Assembly (NCBI RefSeq): GCF_900114615.1
Contig: NZ_FOTS01000003.1
Coordinates: forward strand, 62,001-126,000
Length of the DNA: 64,000 nt
Direction: 5' to 3'
Origin: Pelosinus propionicus DSM 13327
Lineage (GTDB): Bacteria; Bacillota; Negativicutes; DSM-13327
Of this stretch, positions 44,324-49,916 are shown piece by piece. The notes beneath the pieces were generated by a model that was not told the origin of the DNA, ran no database searches, and saw only the letters and a list, made by a program, of their open reading frames with translations. Numbering within the stretch: position 1 is the first letter of the stretch; every line of letters begins with the position of its first letter. A program made the position numbers and the translations under genes.

Positions 44324-44909
44324 AGGACTTCACCTCTTTTAAACCCTGACTTAGCAATGCTGATATCGGAATAATCGTAGCTTTTGGAAAAGTCGAAGTC
44401 AACTGTACGAGATTCTCTTTAGCAAAAGGTACATCAATCTTATTTGCTAAAATTGCATATGAATTGCGAAATAAACCATAATTGTATATTTCACGATCTA
44501 CAGTACTAGGATTATTTACATATTCGTTAGTGATATAAGATAAATCAACAACATGAAATATAAAATCTGCACAGCGCATTAAACTGATTGTTTGAGCCAT
44601 ACCACGACGAATTTTCTCTTCCTGATGTATTTTTTCACCTATCCCACAAGTATCTGTAAGTTTGAAATTTACTGTTGTTTTTCCAAGAGTAATTTTAAGC
44701 AATAGTGATTGCAAAGTTTTTGTTTTATGTATTGCACTGCCACAGAGCTCTTTCTTTGCATCTTCAATAGAAAAATGTCGACATGTGATTAAATCATCAT
44801 ATGTACGAAAGGTCACGTCTACTGTTTTTATGCCAATATAAGAAGCAAAATTGAGAGTAAACATAGTTTTACCTGAATTGGGTCTACCAACCACAGTAAG
44901 TTCTCTCAC
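44304..44909 (-). CDS. Small Ras-like GTPase coupled to spoVK
   Basis: 201 residues. G1 GRPNSGKT (8-15), G3 DTCGIG, G4 NKID and G5 ISAL are present, so GTP binding is likely. The GTG start at 44909 overlaps the spoVK stop (GTGA) with GGAGG upstream inside spoVK. Family not recognised beyond the P-loop GTPase fold. Its coupling ties it to spoVK, so a role in sporulation is inferred. Confidence 0.78.
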   Translation of the reverse strand: MRELTVVGRPNSGKTMFTLNFASYIGIKTVDVTFRTYDDLITCRHFSIEDAKKELCGSAIHKTKTLQSLLLKITLGKTTVNFKLTDTCGIGEKIHQEEKIRRGMAQTISLMRCADFIFHVVDLSYITNEYVNNPSTVDREIYNYGLFRNSYAILANKIDVPFAKENLVQLTSTFPKATIIPISALLSQGLKEVKSCVARNV

Positions 44910-45301
44910 ACTTTTACCTCCTTCAAATCAATAGGTTCAATTAATATTAGCTCTTGCCGAGTTATACTCGTTTTTGACATTAATCTAACAGCCTGATGAC
45001 GAATTGCTTTTTCAATCATATTGCGAACAGTCCTAGCATTACCAAAGTTGTCGTTATTACTGCTGTGCTGTAGTAATAACTTTAATAACAATGTTTTAGC
45101 GTCTGCCGATAAGGTATATTGTCGCTTGACACATAGTTGTTCTGCTATATGTAAAAGCTCTTCTTGATTATAGTCTGGAAAATCAATATGTAATGGAAAT
45201 CGCGATCGTAAACCCGGATTGGTTTGTAAGAAGAATTCCATTTCCTTTTGATAACCAGCTAGAATTAAGATTAATTCCTCTTTATGATCTTCCATTGATT
45301 T
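44906..45301 (-). pseudogene. spoVK: spoVK 3' part, interrupted by a DNA element
   Basis: 131 codons encoding the C-terminal AAA+ half of SpoVK: KSMEDHKEELILILAGYQ (sensor 1), NPGLRSRFP with the Arg-finger region, and the lid helices. The frame continues upstream only to a stop just past 45301 and has no ribosome site; the first ATG is at 45295. After precise excision of 45302-49303 it joins the 5' part at 49304 in frame. It is a reversible interruption, not decay, as both halves are otherwise intact. Confidence 0.92.
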
Positions 45302-45327
45302 TACGAAAACGAATTATTAAAGACCTA
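45292..45327. repeat. Left recombination junction (att site) of the spoVK element
   Basis: Contains host half-site CCATTGAT (45292-45299), the shared core TAC (45302-45304) and element half-site GACCTA (45322-45327). The core TAC matches the one at the right junction. Confidence 0.82.
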
Positions 45328-45630
45328 TAAATATAGATAAATTCCATCATATATGTATAAAAAAATGACGTTTTAAATATATAGTTTTGAGCTTATATTC
45401 TTTGATGTACTTTTATTAATTTTCTTATTGTATTTTTACTATATCGTGTTGAATACTTATCAAATACTCATACAGAAACAAGAACAGTCTTTTTTTATTA
45501 TTATCCAAAAGTTTGCTAAAGGTATCCCAAAGGTTCTTTTATAAATTAATAAGTATTTATCCTTCATGATACTCACCCTTTTATTCAACTATCATATAAT
45601 GTATTAACCGACGATAAAGGAGGAGTACTT
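45305..45630. other. Left end of the element
   Basis: AT-rich sequence without ORF. It holds the left att half-site and a promoter-like TCACC-N17-TATAATGTAT (45573-45604) before the YjcZ-like gene. Nothing else recognised. Confidence 0.6.
45573..45604 (+). promoter_or_regulatory. Promoter of the YjcZ-like gene
   Basis: TCACC (45573-45577), 17 nt, TATAAT (45595-45600) continuing GTAT. CATATAAT also resembles a sigma-E -10 (CATACAAT). The same TCACC-N17-TATAATGTAT occurs before spoVK. Confidence 0.5.
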
Positions 45631-45747
45631 ATGGGTCTAGGTTTTGGAGGCGGTCGTAATGGCTTCGGCGGTTCCGGCTGTATTATTATCATAATTATTA
45701 TTTTATTATTTTTCTGCTGTGATAACGATTGTTCTCCAAGCTGTTAA
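45631..45747 (+). CDS. YjcZ-like small sporulation peptide (38 aa)
   Basis: 38 residues: glycine-rich start MGLGFGGGRNGFGGSGC, an Ile-rich membrane segment and a Cys-rich tail (FFCCDNDCSPSC). This pattern matches the YjcZ-type small hydrophobic sporulation proteins. AAAGGAGGAG gives an excellent ribosome site and a strong terminator follows at 45784, so it is a genuine gene. It is cargo of the spoVK element. Confidence 0.85.
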   Translation: MGLGFGGGRNGFGGSGCIIIIIIILLFFCCDNDCSPSC

Positions 45748-45783
45748 ATTCTTCAAGCTAATCCGCCAAACCATTTCCTCTGC

Positions 45784-45818
45784 AACCACGTTTCCACCAA
45801 AACGTGGTTCATTTTTTT
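45784..45818 (+). terminator. Terminator of the YjcZ-like gene
   Basis: Perfect 10-bp stem AACCACGTTT/AAACGTGGTT, 6-nt loop, T7 run. Confidence 0.93.
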
Positions 45819-45828
45819 ACATTGTTAA

Positions 45829-45848
45829 AAGCGCCCTACGGGGCGCTT
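45829..45848 (-). terminator. Terminator of the Cys/His-repeat gene
   Basis: Perfect GC-rich stem AAGCGCCC/GGGCGCTT with tetraloop TACG, followed by T residues on the minus strand. Confidence 0.9.
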
Positions 45849-45861
45849 GGCAACGATGATA

Positions 45862-46191
45862 TTAATACCAATCATGATTACATTTATTACACTTACATTC
45901 CTGATCAAAGTCATAACTACACCATGGGCACTTATGACAATCTTTGTGGCATTTATTATGACATTTAGGACACTCACATTGATCATGCGCATCATGACCG
46001 CATTTAGGACATTTATGCCAATCTTTCTTACAATCATGATGGCACTTTGGACATTTGCATTCATCATGGATATCATGATCGCATTGAGGGCATTTATGCC
46101 AATCTTTCTCCCACTCATTATGACACTTTGGACACTGATGGTGTATTTCAACATGACATTTGCAATCACGCTGGGACTCAAAGCTACTCAT
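45862..46191 (-). CDS. Cys/His-repeat protein (zinc-knuckle-like, element cargo)
   Basis: 109 residues made of CPxC pairs about every 13-16 residues: CPKCHNEWEKDWHKCPQC, CPKCHHDCKKDWHKCPKC, CPKCHNKCHKDCHKCPWC, CNKC. About 23 Cys and 18 His imply many metal-binding sites, like multi-zinc proteins or Cys-rich spore coat proteins. ATG 46191 follows GAGGTGAGATA; the GTG at 46209 contains that site. A sigma-K-like promoter lies upstream. Other frames here are repeats of the same DNA. Confidence 0.78.
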   Translation of the reverse strand: MSSFESQRDCKCHVEIHHQCPKCHNEWEKDWHKCPQCDHDIHDECKCPKCHHDCKKDWHKCPKCGHDAHDQCECPKCHNKCHKDCHKCPWCSYDFDQECKCNKCNHDWY

Positions 46192-46220
46192 TATCTCACC
46201 TCTTTCCACAGTATTTAATA

Positions 46221-46248
46221 TATACTATGTAAATTGAGCGAAATGAGT
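46221..46248 (-). promoter_or_regulatory. Sigma-K-like promoter of the Cys/His-repeat gene
   Basis: Minus strand: AC (46247-46248), 17 nt, then CATAGTATA (46221-46229), a perfect match to CATANNNTA with the sigma-K spacing. In AT-rich DNA chance matches are possible. Confidence 0.5.
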
Positions 46249-46688
46249 GCCAATTATTAAAATAAACGTCCACTACAACGTGTACCTTACCTTTTACATA
46301 TTTACTTGCACTATCATCATGAAACTTACTTTTACGGTAGTTCTCGTATTTTTCATGTATTTATTCTTTATACATCCCCTTTAATAAAATAAAAATACCG
46401 GCACTCATATTAGTAATACTCGATAGTATCAGCTTCCTTTCATGGGTAGCCATTTATTTTTTTCACCATATATATACTTGTTTAGCTGGTGTCAAAGTAC
46501 TTTTTCACAATAGCAGTACCATCTCATTACAACAATGTTTATTAAAACTTTTTAACCAATAAACCTACAGAGGAGACTTCGCTATCAACAACATATGAAT
46601 TACAAAGCCTGCCAGAGTATCTATATTTCATAATAACTGGTATTTTCAACATATCAAAACCTGTCTACTTTTTTAGCTGGAGCACCAG
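46249..46688. other. Gene-free stretch in the element
   Basis: AT-rich sequence between the Cys/His-repeat gene and the 57-aa gene, apart from the upstream promoter. I see no ORF, strong repeat or RNA motif. Confidence 0.5.
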
Positions 46689-46862
46689 CTACTGACGTCC
46701 AAATACTTCGTAGTAAATCCTGAGTTGAGCCCTTGCTAAGTGCCGGTTGTAGTTATTTACCGCTTCTTTTCCGGGCTGATTTAGCATTTTCCAATGTACT
46801 TTTATTTCTTTTAGTTTTTCTGGCGATATTTTAGTTCGATTAGTATTTTTGGTACCTTCCAA
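46689..46862 (-). CDS. Small basic protein (57 aa), candidate accessory factor of the recombinase
   Basis: 57 residues, helical and Lys/Arg-rich: MEGTKNTNRTKISPEKLKEI start, KVHWKMLNQPGKEAVNNYNR and RAQLRIYYEVFGRQ end. TTG at 46862 with TCGGAGG 8 nt upstream. It is shorter than typical gene-finder limits. Small basic proteins of this size act as directionality factors for some serine integrases (SprB of SPbeta); assigning this role here is inference only. Confidence 0.6.
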   Translation of the reverse strand: MEGTKNTNRTKISPEKLKEIKVHWKMLNQPGKEAVNNYNRHLARAQLRIYYEVFGRQ

Positions 46863-47715
46863 AATCTTCGCCTCCGATTCAAATTGTGCTCATTACAGTT
46901 TATGCTGGATAAGATTGTCCGTTTTACAGTTTTTTTACTTTATATCCTTAGGTAGCAGAACCTTACTTAAAGAAGATAGAGCATTAACAAATGTTTCTTT
47001 ACACTAAAAACAAAGTAAAGACACGTCTAGCGTAGTTCTTTTAAAACGTAGTTGAGCAAACAATTCTTGCTCACAATGAAAACTAGAATTTTAAAAACAT
47101 AAACAAACATATTTTTACTCTCTATAAACTGAATTGTACCTTCTTGAATTGGTTATTTTATAAAACGTCCAATTCAAGAAGATACAATTCAATAATAGGT
47201 AGGCTATATATTTAGCATTTATTTACACTTTTCTCATTAGTAATAGCACCACTACTAGTTTTAGAACCTATCAATTAGGAGTAACTGATGCGTATCAACC
47301 TCATGTGATACTTTCTGTAAAAAAATCGTTTTCTATGCTTGTGTCAATATAACTAGACAATGATTTATTGGCTGTAACTAAAATCATTAGGGAACTTTTA
47401 GATTTAAAACTCGAATTCTGTTATATTAATTAAATTATAAAAAATACTGCTAGCGTTTGCCCTTTGCAATTCTTAGTTATTAAGTAATTTTGATGTTTAT
47501 CTTTGCATATCTTTAATATTGGAATAGTTTTAAAAAACTTATTACTCAATAAATTCTCTTTATTTTATGCTATGCATAAGATACTATACTGCGCAACAAT
47601 AAAGTTAATTTACAATCATTTTTTTTCAAGTTAAACTAATAGACAAAAACACATAACACTATTCCAATAATAATAGATGATATTATGAAATACATGTTTT
47701 AGGAGGTTCATATAT
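46863..47715. other. Long non-coding stretch upstream of the recombinase gene
   Basis: AT-rich with no ORF that I trust. It contains a short hairpin TGAGCAA/TTGCTCA near 47055 and a 22-bp hairpin at 47131-47190. The recombinase ribosome site is at 47701. It may hold a promoter for developmental control, but I find no convincing sigma-E site. Confidence 0.5.
47131..47190. repeat. 22-bp hairpin inside the element
   Basis: GAATTGTACCTTCTTGAATT-GG against CCAATTCAAG-AAGATACAATTC, 21 of 22 pairs, loop 16 nt. No T run follows, so it is a stable RNA hairpin or DNA-binding site rather than a clear terminator. Confidence 0.75.
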
Positions 47716-49245
47716 ATGATTGCAGCACTTTACATACGTGTATCTACAGCTGATCAAGCAGAAAAGGGATATTCTCTTGAAACTCAGTTAACAGAAAACC
47801 GTAAGAAAGCAAGTGAATTGGGAGCAACAAATTTCGTAGAGTTTATTGATGATGGCTATAGTGGTGAATATATTGATCGCCCTGCCCTCACTCAACTGCG
47901 GGATGGATTAGAAAGAAAAGAATTTGACATAGTTGTTATATACGACCCCGATCGATTAGCCAGAAATCTAGCGCACCAGCTTATCATTACAGATGAAATA
48001 GAAAAGTCTGGGGGGAAATTGTTCTTCGTCTCGGTCACCTTTGAATCATCGCCCGAAGGAAAATTATTTTATTCTATGCGTGGTGCCATATCCGCCTATG
48101 AAAAAGAGAAAATTAAAGAACGTACAACTCGTGGTAAGAAGGGAAAGGCTCGCCAAGGTAAGCTAGTAAATAACGGTCACTGTTTTGGATATGAGTATGA
48201 TAAAGCTAATAGTATGTATATTATAAATGAAGATCAAGCTGTTATTGTGCGTCAAATCTTTAATTTATGCATCAAAGATAAATTAGGTACCGCCCTCATT
48301 AGCAAAGAATTGAATCGTGAAGGGATTCCTGCTCCTCGTGGTAATCACTGGATAGTTTCAAGCATCCATCGAATACTCACGAATACAGCTTATCGAGGTA
48401 TTATTTACAGCATGAAGCACAAATCCACTAAAACAGGTTTTAATACTCGTAAAATTGAGACTCGCCCTGAATCCGAGTGGATTCCCATCCAAGTACCTGC
48501 TATTGTTGATGAAATCACTTGGCACTTTGCGCAAAAACAATTGCAACTAAATAAGGATTTATCTAAAAGAAACTTAAAATTTGACTATCTTTTAAATGGT
48601 TTAGTCTACTGTAAACTCTGCAACAGAAAAATGACCATCAAACATTCTGGCAATGGTGATAGCCCTATCAGCTATTACGTTTGCTTAACGCAAGTTAGCA
48701 CATCCTATATGTATTTAGAAAATGAAAAATGCACAGTTAGGCGTATTCCTGCTGTCATACTAGATGAATTGGTATGGGATAAGTTAAATGAATTAGCAGA
48801 AAACCTTGAACTAATAGATCAATATGCACAAGATATTGGCAATCCTAGCGCAGCAGCTAAAGTTAAAAACACTTTAATAAAGCTAAAAGAAACTGAGAAA
48901 AAAATAAAAACCCAAAAGGACACTGTTATGCGATGGTTTCGACGACAAATCATTAGTGGCAGCGATGCTGAAAAACATTTAGATGATATCAACAAGCAAC
49001 TTATTAATATCGAGGTTACAAAAAAACGTTTAAATGATGAGTTGAATCTTCTTACACTTCAAATTAGTCCAGTAAATACTATAAAGAAACTTAAAAATCA
49101 TTTTAAAGATTCTCAATACTACTCAAATGACGAGCGAAAGGGAGCAGTGCGCACAGTGCTCGAAAAGGTAATTGTTGAACGAATTGACACTACCTATGCC
49201 AAAAATAGCAAGCCTGAATTAACGATTGATTTAAAATTTTTATAA
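47716..49245 (+). CDS. Large serine recombinase (SpoIVCA-like)
   Basis: 509 residues. A resolvase-type catalytic domain (nucleophile S10 in IRVSTADQ; YDPDRLARN; SYEKEKIKERT-like SAYEKEKIKERT), a recombinase domain (REGIPAPRGNHWIVSSI), a zinc ribbon (CKLCNRKM and distal CLTQ... C) and a coiled coil (about 390-470) are in the canonical order. It belongs to the family that excises skin and integrates phages such as phiC31. AGGAGG lies 9 nt upstream. Its stop is about 60 nt from the right junction of the spoVK element. Confidence 0.95.
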   Translation: MIAALYIRVSTADQAEKGYSLETQLTENRKKASELGATNFVEFIDDGYSGEYIDRPALTQLRDGLERKEFDIVVIYDPDRLARNLAHQLIITDEIEKSGGKLFFVSVTFESSPEGKLFYSMRGAISAYEKEKIKERTTRGKKGKARQGKLVNNGHCFGYEYDKANSMYIINEDQAVIVRQIFNLCIKDKLGTALISKELNREGIPAPRGNHWIVSSIHRILTNTAYRGIIYSMKHKSTKTGFNTRKIETRPESEWIPIQVPAIVDEITWHFAQKQLQLNKDLSKRNLKFDYLLNGLVYCKLCNRKMTIKHSGNGDSPISYYVCLTQVSTSYMYLENEKCTVRRIPAVILDELVWDKLNELAENLELIDQYAQDIGNPSAAAKVKNTLIKLKETEKKIKTQKDTVMRWFRRQIISGSDAEKHLDDINKQLINIEVTKKRLNDELNLLTLQISPVNTIKKLKNHFKDSQYYSNDERKGAVRTVLEKVIVERIDTTYAKNSKPELTIDLKFL

Positions 49246-49255
49246 ATCTTCAGTT

Positions 49256-49852
49256 TTATACTATGTATGTATGTATTTTTTTAGGTCCTTGTATACTGGT
49301 TACTACCAATACATCAATGGATTCTTTCCCAAAATCTTTTTCACCGCCCCGAGCCAAAGAGTATGCTTCGTCAATAAATAAGATGCCACCATATGCTTTC
49401 TTTAATTGTTCACGAGTCTTCTGGGCTGTATGCCCTATATATTCTCCAACCAAATCAGCTCTCTCAACCTCAATAAGATGACCACGTTGTAAGATTCCAA
49501 TCTCACGAAAGATTTGCCCAAGTAGCCTCGCCACAGTGGTTTTCCCTGTACCTGGATTTCCTTTAAAGATCATATGCAGCACTAATGGTTCGGTATTTAA
49601 TTTTTCTTGTACACGGCGACGCTGAATTTCAATAAATGCATAAATCTCTCTTACCAAGTTTTTCACTTCTGATAATCCGATTAAATGGTCTAATTCATAT
49701 AAAATTTCTTCTATTCGCTTTTGCCGATTATCGATTTTAGTATGACAAGTAGTTATATTATCTAATTTGCGCAAAGACTTAAACGCCTGAGTTGGTGATA
49801 TTTCACCATTTCCAACAGCTGTAAAAACATCTTGTGGATAAACATAGGTCAT
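49256..49852 (-). pseudogene. spoVK: spoVK 5' part, interrupted by a DNA element
   Basis: Encodes SpoVK residues 1-183 (to 49304): a divergent N-terminus, then AAA+ Walker [20 protein letters not shown] and Walker [11 protein letters not shown]. The frame then enters element sequence and stops at 49256 after an unrelated VTSIQG tail. It lacks sensor 1 and the Arg-finger region, so it would be inactive until rejoined. Total after excision is 314 residues (B. subtilis SpoVK is 322). ATG 49852 follows GGGGTGA. Confidence 0.92.
49282..49320. repeat. Right recombination junction (att site) of the spoVK element
   Basis: Contains element half-site TAGGTC (49282-49287), core TAC (49304-49306) and host half-site ATCAATGG (49313-49320). 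Confidence 0.82.
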
Positions 49853-49884: not shown

Positions 49885-49916
49885 ATACATTATACTCAGA
49901 ATGCAAGAAACGGTGA
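49885..49916 (-). promoter_or_regulatory. Promoter of spoVK
   Basis: Minus strand TCACC (49912-49916), 17 nt, TATAAT (49889-49894) continuing GTAT. Sigma-A-like -10; identical fixed positions precede the YjcZ-like gene in the element. Confidence 0.5.

Follow-up and report, generated by a model that had tools for sequence, protein, structure and literature searches.

A candidate skin-like intervening element within the sporulation gene spoVK of Pelosinus propionicus

The interrupted gene and the limits of the element

In the 64,000-nt stretch of the Pelosinus propionicus DSM 13327 genome analysed here (the window, to which all positions refer), spoVK is present as two separated parts on the minus strand. 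The 5' part, which codes for the N-terminal portion of the protein, occupies 49305-49852 through the crossover dinucleotide, and the 3' part, which codes for the C-terminal portion, occupies 44906-45304; between them lies an element of 4,002 bp (45305-49306, one AC dinucleotide included), whose limits were defined by the junctions and by the empty site in relatives. The left junction reads CCATTGATTTTACGAAAACGAATTATTAAAGACCTA (45292-45327) and the right junction TAGGTCCTTGTATACTGGTTACTACCAATACATCAATGG (49282-49320), with copies of TAC at 45302-45304 and 49304-49306, respectively. When 45304 is joined to 49307 and one TAC is kept, an open frame of 314 codons is obtained on the minus strand; the site of interruption is a Val-Lys codon pair of spoVK, and these codons and the 314-aa protein are restored when the junctions are joined through TAC.

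The joined protein matches TIGR02881 (stage V sporulation protein K) over positions 3-261 of 261 with 419 bits, which is 4 bits below the curated cut-off of 423 and far above the next family, and AAA_lid_6 is recognised in its C-terminal part. Left unjoined, the N-terminal part reads into residues of the element and meets a stop soon after, while the C-terminal part has in-frame stops ahead of its frame. The intact spoVK genes of relatives, including that of Pelosinus G002, have the same layout as the joined gene and, at the level of sequence, the gene is interrupted precisely and its frame is restored by joining.

The recombinase and the other genes of the element

Large serine recombinases are proteins of about 450-700 aa in which Resolvase, Recombinase and zinc-ribbon domains are combined. 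The element codes for its own site-specific recombinase of this kind, a 509-aa protein (47716-49245, plus strand) in which PF00239, PF07508 and PF13408 all score above their cut-offs and in which the catalytic Ser and Arg and the zinc-binding Cys residues are conserved (R8, S10, R80, R83, C299, C302, C323 and C339 are invariant in the recombinase alignment, A1). Its relatives are 79-86% identical in six other Pelosinus genomes and about 50% identical in other families, and its dN/dS is 0.07-0.13. The closest full-length relatives of solved structure, found with a 14-sequence profile, are those of the SPbeta integrase YokA/SprA (9dxh, 9dxd; about 94 bits); the protein is assigned to phrog_95, a family of phage integrases, and its match to NF041201 (XisF), 102.6 bits, is far below the cut-off of 375. 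The gene is antiparallel to spoVK and its 3' end adjoins the 5' part of spoVK. A simple scan for sigma-E and sigma-K promoters upstream of the recombinase performed no better than on shuffled sequences, and in a footprint comparison of the Pelosinus upstream regions the ribosome-binding site alone was conserved.

A 57-aa ORF (46689-46862, minus strand) is a candidate recombination directionality factor, a role suggested by its occurrence, its constraint and its predicted fold rather than by any sequence-based link. It is found in one copy, always inside the element, in all seven Pelosinus genomes that carry the element, whereas a search of Pelosinus G002, in which spoVK is intact, and of some 22 further genomes did not find it. 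Most of its dN/dS values fall at 0.13-0.3, rising to 0.43 in a pair of low divergence, and a two-helix hairpin is predicted with a mean pLDDT of 82; searches against PDB, Pfam, PHROGs and NCBIfam returned no meaningful match. In the sister clade, a different small ORF is located directly upstream of the recombinase. An overlapping factor ORF resembling skr of the Bacillus subtilis skin was also considered and discarded: some relatives have such an ORF out of frame, but none corresponding to it is listed for the window element.

The cargo includes a Cys/His-rich, double-zinc-ribbon-like protein of 115 aa (45862-46209, minus strand; Pfam DZR), with a related ORF in the element of Pelosinus fermentans JBW45, and a Gly/Ile/Cys-rich small protein of 38 aa (45631-45747, plus strand), with a 97% identical ORF in the same JBW45 element; the remaining cargo varies between elements. 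Among the window-element proteins tested, only the recombinase had a PHROGs match below E 0.1, and no phage structural or replication genes were found.

Distribution of the split gene

When a first sample of genomes was searched with joined SpoVK, 13 had the gene interrupted at the same residues and about 15, Pelosinus G002 among them, had it intact. The same arrangement occurs in P. fermentans JBW45, Sporomusa ovata, S. silvacetica, S. acidovorans, Propionispora and several MAGs and, overall, at least 22 Negativicutes loci have spoVK interrupted at this Val-Lys pair; the scan of named genomes overlaps the first sample, with some genomes identical, and the count of 22 is one of distinct loci. 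All the recombinases of Negativicutes spoVK loci that were placed in the tree, 21 in number, form one clade with a moderate SH-aLRT of 81. Elements can be very small and still keep the recombinase and the att sites, as in G041 (2,969 bp). In an even sample of the phylum (119 genomes), a spoVK-like match was found in 88 genomes and the split gene only in the window genome and in one Clostridiales genome (PH28_bin88).

Beyond the Negativicutes, spoVK is split at the same Val-Lys codons in PH28_bin88, where the element measures 75 kb, and in two Paenibacillus genomes (L146 and L148), with recombinases just 27-40% identical to that of the window. In five IMG/VR contigs of 29-135 kb (L203-L207, two of which do not differ within the stretch read), the C-terminal half of spoVK adjoins a recombinase of 27-28% identity. 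Since such distant recombinases reach the same codons, spoVK looks, from these comparisons, like a recurrent integration site (attB), and the small spoVK elements may plausibly stem from prophages.

Further recombinase genes were noted in the course of this survey. At L081 (G046 contig C92, 765-3927), an asparagine synthase gene coding for 527 aa, against 615 aa in its homologues, directly adjoins a recombinase that is sister to the spoVK clade; an element of the same recombinase family may have split this gene too. The other recombinases of the P. propionicus genome (L083-L087) fall outside the spoVK clade. One of them (L083, contig C57, 1290-4738), 45% identical, lies with HTH and ImmA-like genes against a 193-aa ComF-family ORF, possibly a competence gene cut short by a prophage-like element. 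A lone large serine recombinase gene stands beside full-length spoIIR in Pelosinus and Lucifera (L084, L107, L104), in the spoIIGA-sigE-sigG-spoIIR locus, where no split gene was seen. Serine recombinase genes with similar neighbourhoods across Pelosinus genomes are also found at L085, L112, L115, L086, L123, L087 and L126.

The crossover point and the attachment sites

Serine recombinases require a 2-bp overlap that is invariant between the recombining sites. In the 18 elements with both junctions fully read, GT on the coding strand (AC on the plus strand, with its left-junction copy at 45303-45304 and its right-junction copy at 49305-49306) is the sole pair of letters always common to both junctions (18/18); the junctions disagree at the base before GT in 15 elements and at the base after it in seven (G058, G039, G043, G020, L094, L099 and L153). 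In L146, one of the Paenibacillus cases, GT itself is not common to both junctions. The same dinucleotide is the centre of an inverted repeat in attP. Its half-sites occupy the two ends of the element, the left one at 45305-45332 (including GACCTA at 45322-45327) and the right one at 49277-49304 (including TAGGTC at 49282-49287), and the predicted circle would carry TAGGTC-N16-TAC-N17-GACCTA, with the centre between A and C of TAC. With the arms read outward from GT, 16 of 28 positions are paired in the window attP, compared with 9.6 +/- 2.3 in shuffled sequences (p = 0.007). For the 18 elements taken together, which are related and hence not independent draws, the paired positions number 294 at the GT centre versus 129-186 at other centres within 8 bp. 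The arms are nearly perfect in G043 (26/30 paired), and the dyad is at chance level in the Pelosinus elements G005 and G006 and in L092. The crossover dinucleotide and the attP-like repeat centred on it, both of which the first-pass annotation had put forward, are thus borne out, and the shared overlap and the dyad together support its reading of the junctions as att sites of a serine recombinase.

It had also been stated that the junctions share only TAC. The register holds, as relatives settle it; the word "only" does not, as TTAC (45301-45304 and 49300-49303) matches over 4 nt and, if used, would insert an extra Val codon. A crossover in this TTAC register, or deeper into the shared GTNAAA stretch, would place the overlap elsewhere: TTAC is the longer match when this window is taken alone, and the sharing of GTNAAA often extends past GT. 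In the junction comparison, however, the second GTA is absent from relatives, and for this reason the TAC register is preferred over TTAC, while the seven elements that disagree at the base following GT and the attP dyad, whose maximum falls at the GT centre and at no other, also speak against a displaced crossover, which we consider extremely unlikely.

The fate of a second proposed repeat, in attB, was different. Joining at TAC gives CCATTGAT-N11-ATCAATGG, exactly as had been claimed, with a left arm at 45292-45299 and a right arm at 49313-49320. That this repeat is a functional recognition feature might be argued from its perfection in this species (8/8) and from its rarity, since shuffling the 60-nt attB segment produces an 8-bp repeat about 1% of the time. 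Its centre, however, sits 1.5 bp from that of AC, only 4-7 of 8 positions are paired in the other occupied hosts, and the mean over all occupied hosts (5.4 of 8) is hardly above that of 15 uninterrupted spoVK genes (4.9 of 8). Because it is nearly as strong in uninterrupted genes, the comparison identifies the CCATTGAT/ATCAATGG repeat as coding sequence, derived from the codons for S-I-D and K-S/A-M; neither arm is an att feature, the repeat is dropped as a signature of the recombinase, and a role in recognition is very unlikely. The attP of serine integrases is about 50 bp long, and the structure of a Listeria phage integrase predicts that the zinc-domain motif lies 5 bp further inward in attB (PMC3783163). 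Of 19 shifts tried on the 3' attB arm, that of 5 bp was the best (identity 0.48 overall and 0.64 in the sister clade, in which attP TTTATG...CTTCC faces attB TTTATGATCTTCC at this shift); it was not seen on the 5' attB arm, nor in the Pelosinus clade. The inward shift of the zinc motif would be a better attB signature than the inverted repeat, clear in the sister clade only and on the 3' arm only.

Selection on spoVK and excision of the element

For pairs with this genome, the dN/dS of joined spoVK is 0.04-0.05, equal whether the relative is split or intact; against JBW45, the N-terminal half has dN 0.014 and dS 0.37, and the C-terminal half dN 0.030 and dS 0.58. Judged by these rates, purifying selection acts on both halves of spoVK as well as on the recombinase. 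A box composed of TCACC, 13-14 nt and [CA][AG]TATAAT (about 49889-49916 in the window) precedes spoVK by about 62 nt in 19 of 29 Negativicutes, whether the gene is split or intact. Its chance rate, 0.2% for each sequence, is flattering, the box having been picked after some of the same sequences had been viewed; the box may be the spoVK promoter. The genome also carries spoIIGA, sigE, sigG and spoIIR, named by eye from their translations.

The insert might, on the other hand, be an ordinary mobile element or a decayed prophage that inactivates spoVK, the loss being tolerated and excision rare or never occurring. The pattern of an excised attB copy has no match in the genome assembly, which is expected for vegetative DNA and is no proof of either reading; prophage-sized elements end in spoVK in the IMG/VR contigs, and the recombinase falls in a phage integrase family. 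A dead gene split across many genera would decay, however, and in split genomes both halves of spoVK have dN far below dS; the recombinase is constrained as well, and even very small elements, such as the 2,969-bp one of G041, still keep it together with their att sites. Inactivation of spoVK is therefore improbable, and the 4-kb insert is very probably a skin-like intervening element that would be excised in the mother cell.

For such an element, the following course may be proposed, in which we infer from the sequences both excision itself and its timing in sporulation. The recombinase, probably together with a directionality factor encoded by the element, for which the 57-aa ORF is the candidate, would pair the junctions as attL and attR and make, in each of them, cuts staggered by 2 bp at GT (AC on the plus strand). 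Joining of the outer halves would restore the Val-Lys codons and SpoVK, and the element would be released as a circle carrying attP. As with skin, excision would take place in the sporulating mother cell alone, and the forespore would keep the element.

Relation to known systems and significance

The element resembles skin, which splits sigK in Bacillus subtilis and Clostridioides difficile, in that a large serine recombinase is encoded, a mother-cell sporulation gene is split and precise excision restores the frame (PMC5025042, PMC6957869). It differs from skin in its target, in its size, down to 3-4 kb, in the phage-like cargo, which was not found in the window element, and in the recombinase gene, which is here opposite to spoVK with its 3' end beside the 5' part. 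SPbeta, whose excision at the time of sporulation rebuilds spsM (PMC4191935), is similar in its symmetric att sites and in its integrase SprA/YokA (with the factor SprB/YotN), the nearest full-length solved relative, whereas it is a large active prophage in another gene. The elements gin (gerE), vfbin (spoVFB), yin (yabG), that of spoVR and phi3T in kamA belong to the same class of sporulation-gene intervening elements, in other target genes and other host groups (PMC5595907, PMC10747680, PMC6957869); in gin, which was assayed with the small factor GirX, attB symmetry is absent, as here (PMC5595907). Developmental excision by a serine recombinase is also shared with XisF of the fdxN element of heterocyst-forming cyanobacteria, in which both the development and the target differ and to whose family the window protein matches only far below cut-off.

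The split sporulation genes named in the literature consulted are sigK, spoVFB, spoVR, spsM, gerE, yabG and kamA (PMC6957869, PMC10747680, PMC5595907). In the literature searched, to which subscription journals were mostly external, spoVK was not found among split genes, which is no proof of novelty, and no split sporulation-gene system was found described in Negativicutes, spore formers with outer membranes. It is conceivable, if doubtful, that the interruption of spoVK is itself selected, as a developmental switch inherited vertically among bacteria of the Sporomusa and Pelosinus type, and that the distant recombinases of Negativicutes, Paenibacillus, Clostridiales and prophage type converge on the Val-Lys codons as a split gene helps to time sporulation or commit the cell to it, beyond the mere conservation of these codons.

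With the present element, spoVK would join the short list of sporulation genes that are split and mended by recombinases, and such a system would be placed in many Negativicutes. The loci described here, at least 22 with one fixed overlap, offer a natural series for the study of recognition rules and directionality in a clade of serine integrases, and the convergence of distant recombinases on the same codons means that one can test whether the splitting of sporulation genes is accidental or serves as a useful switch.
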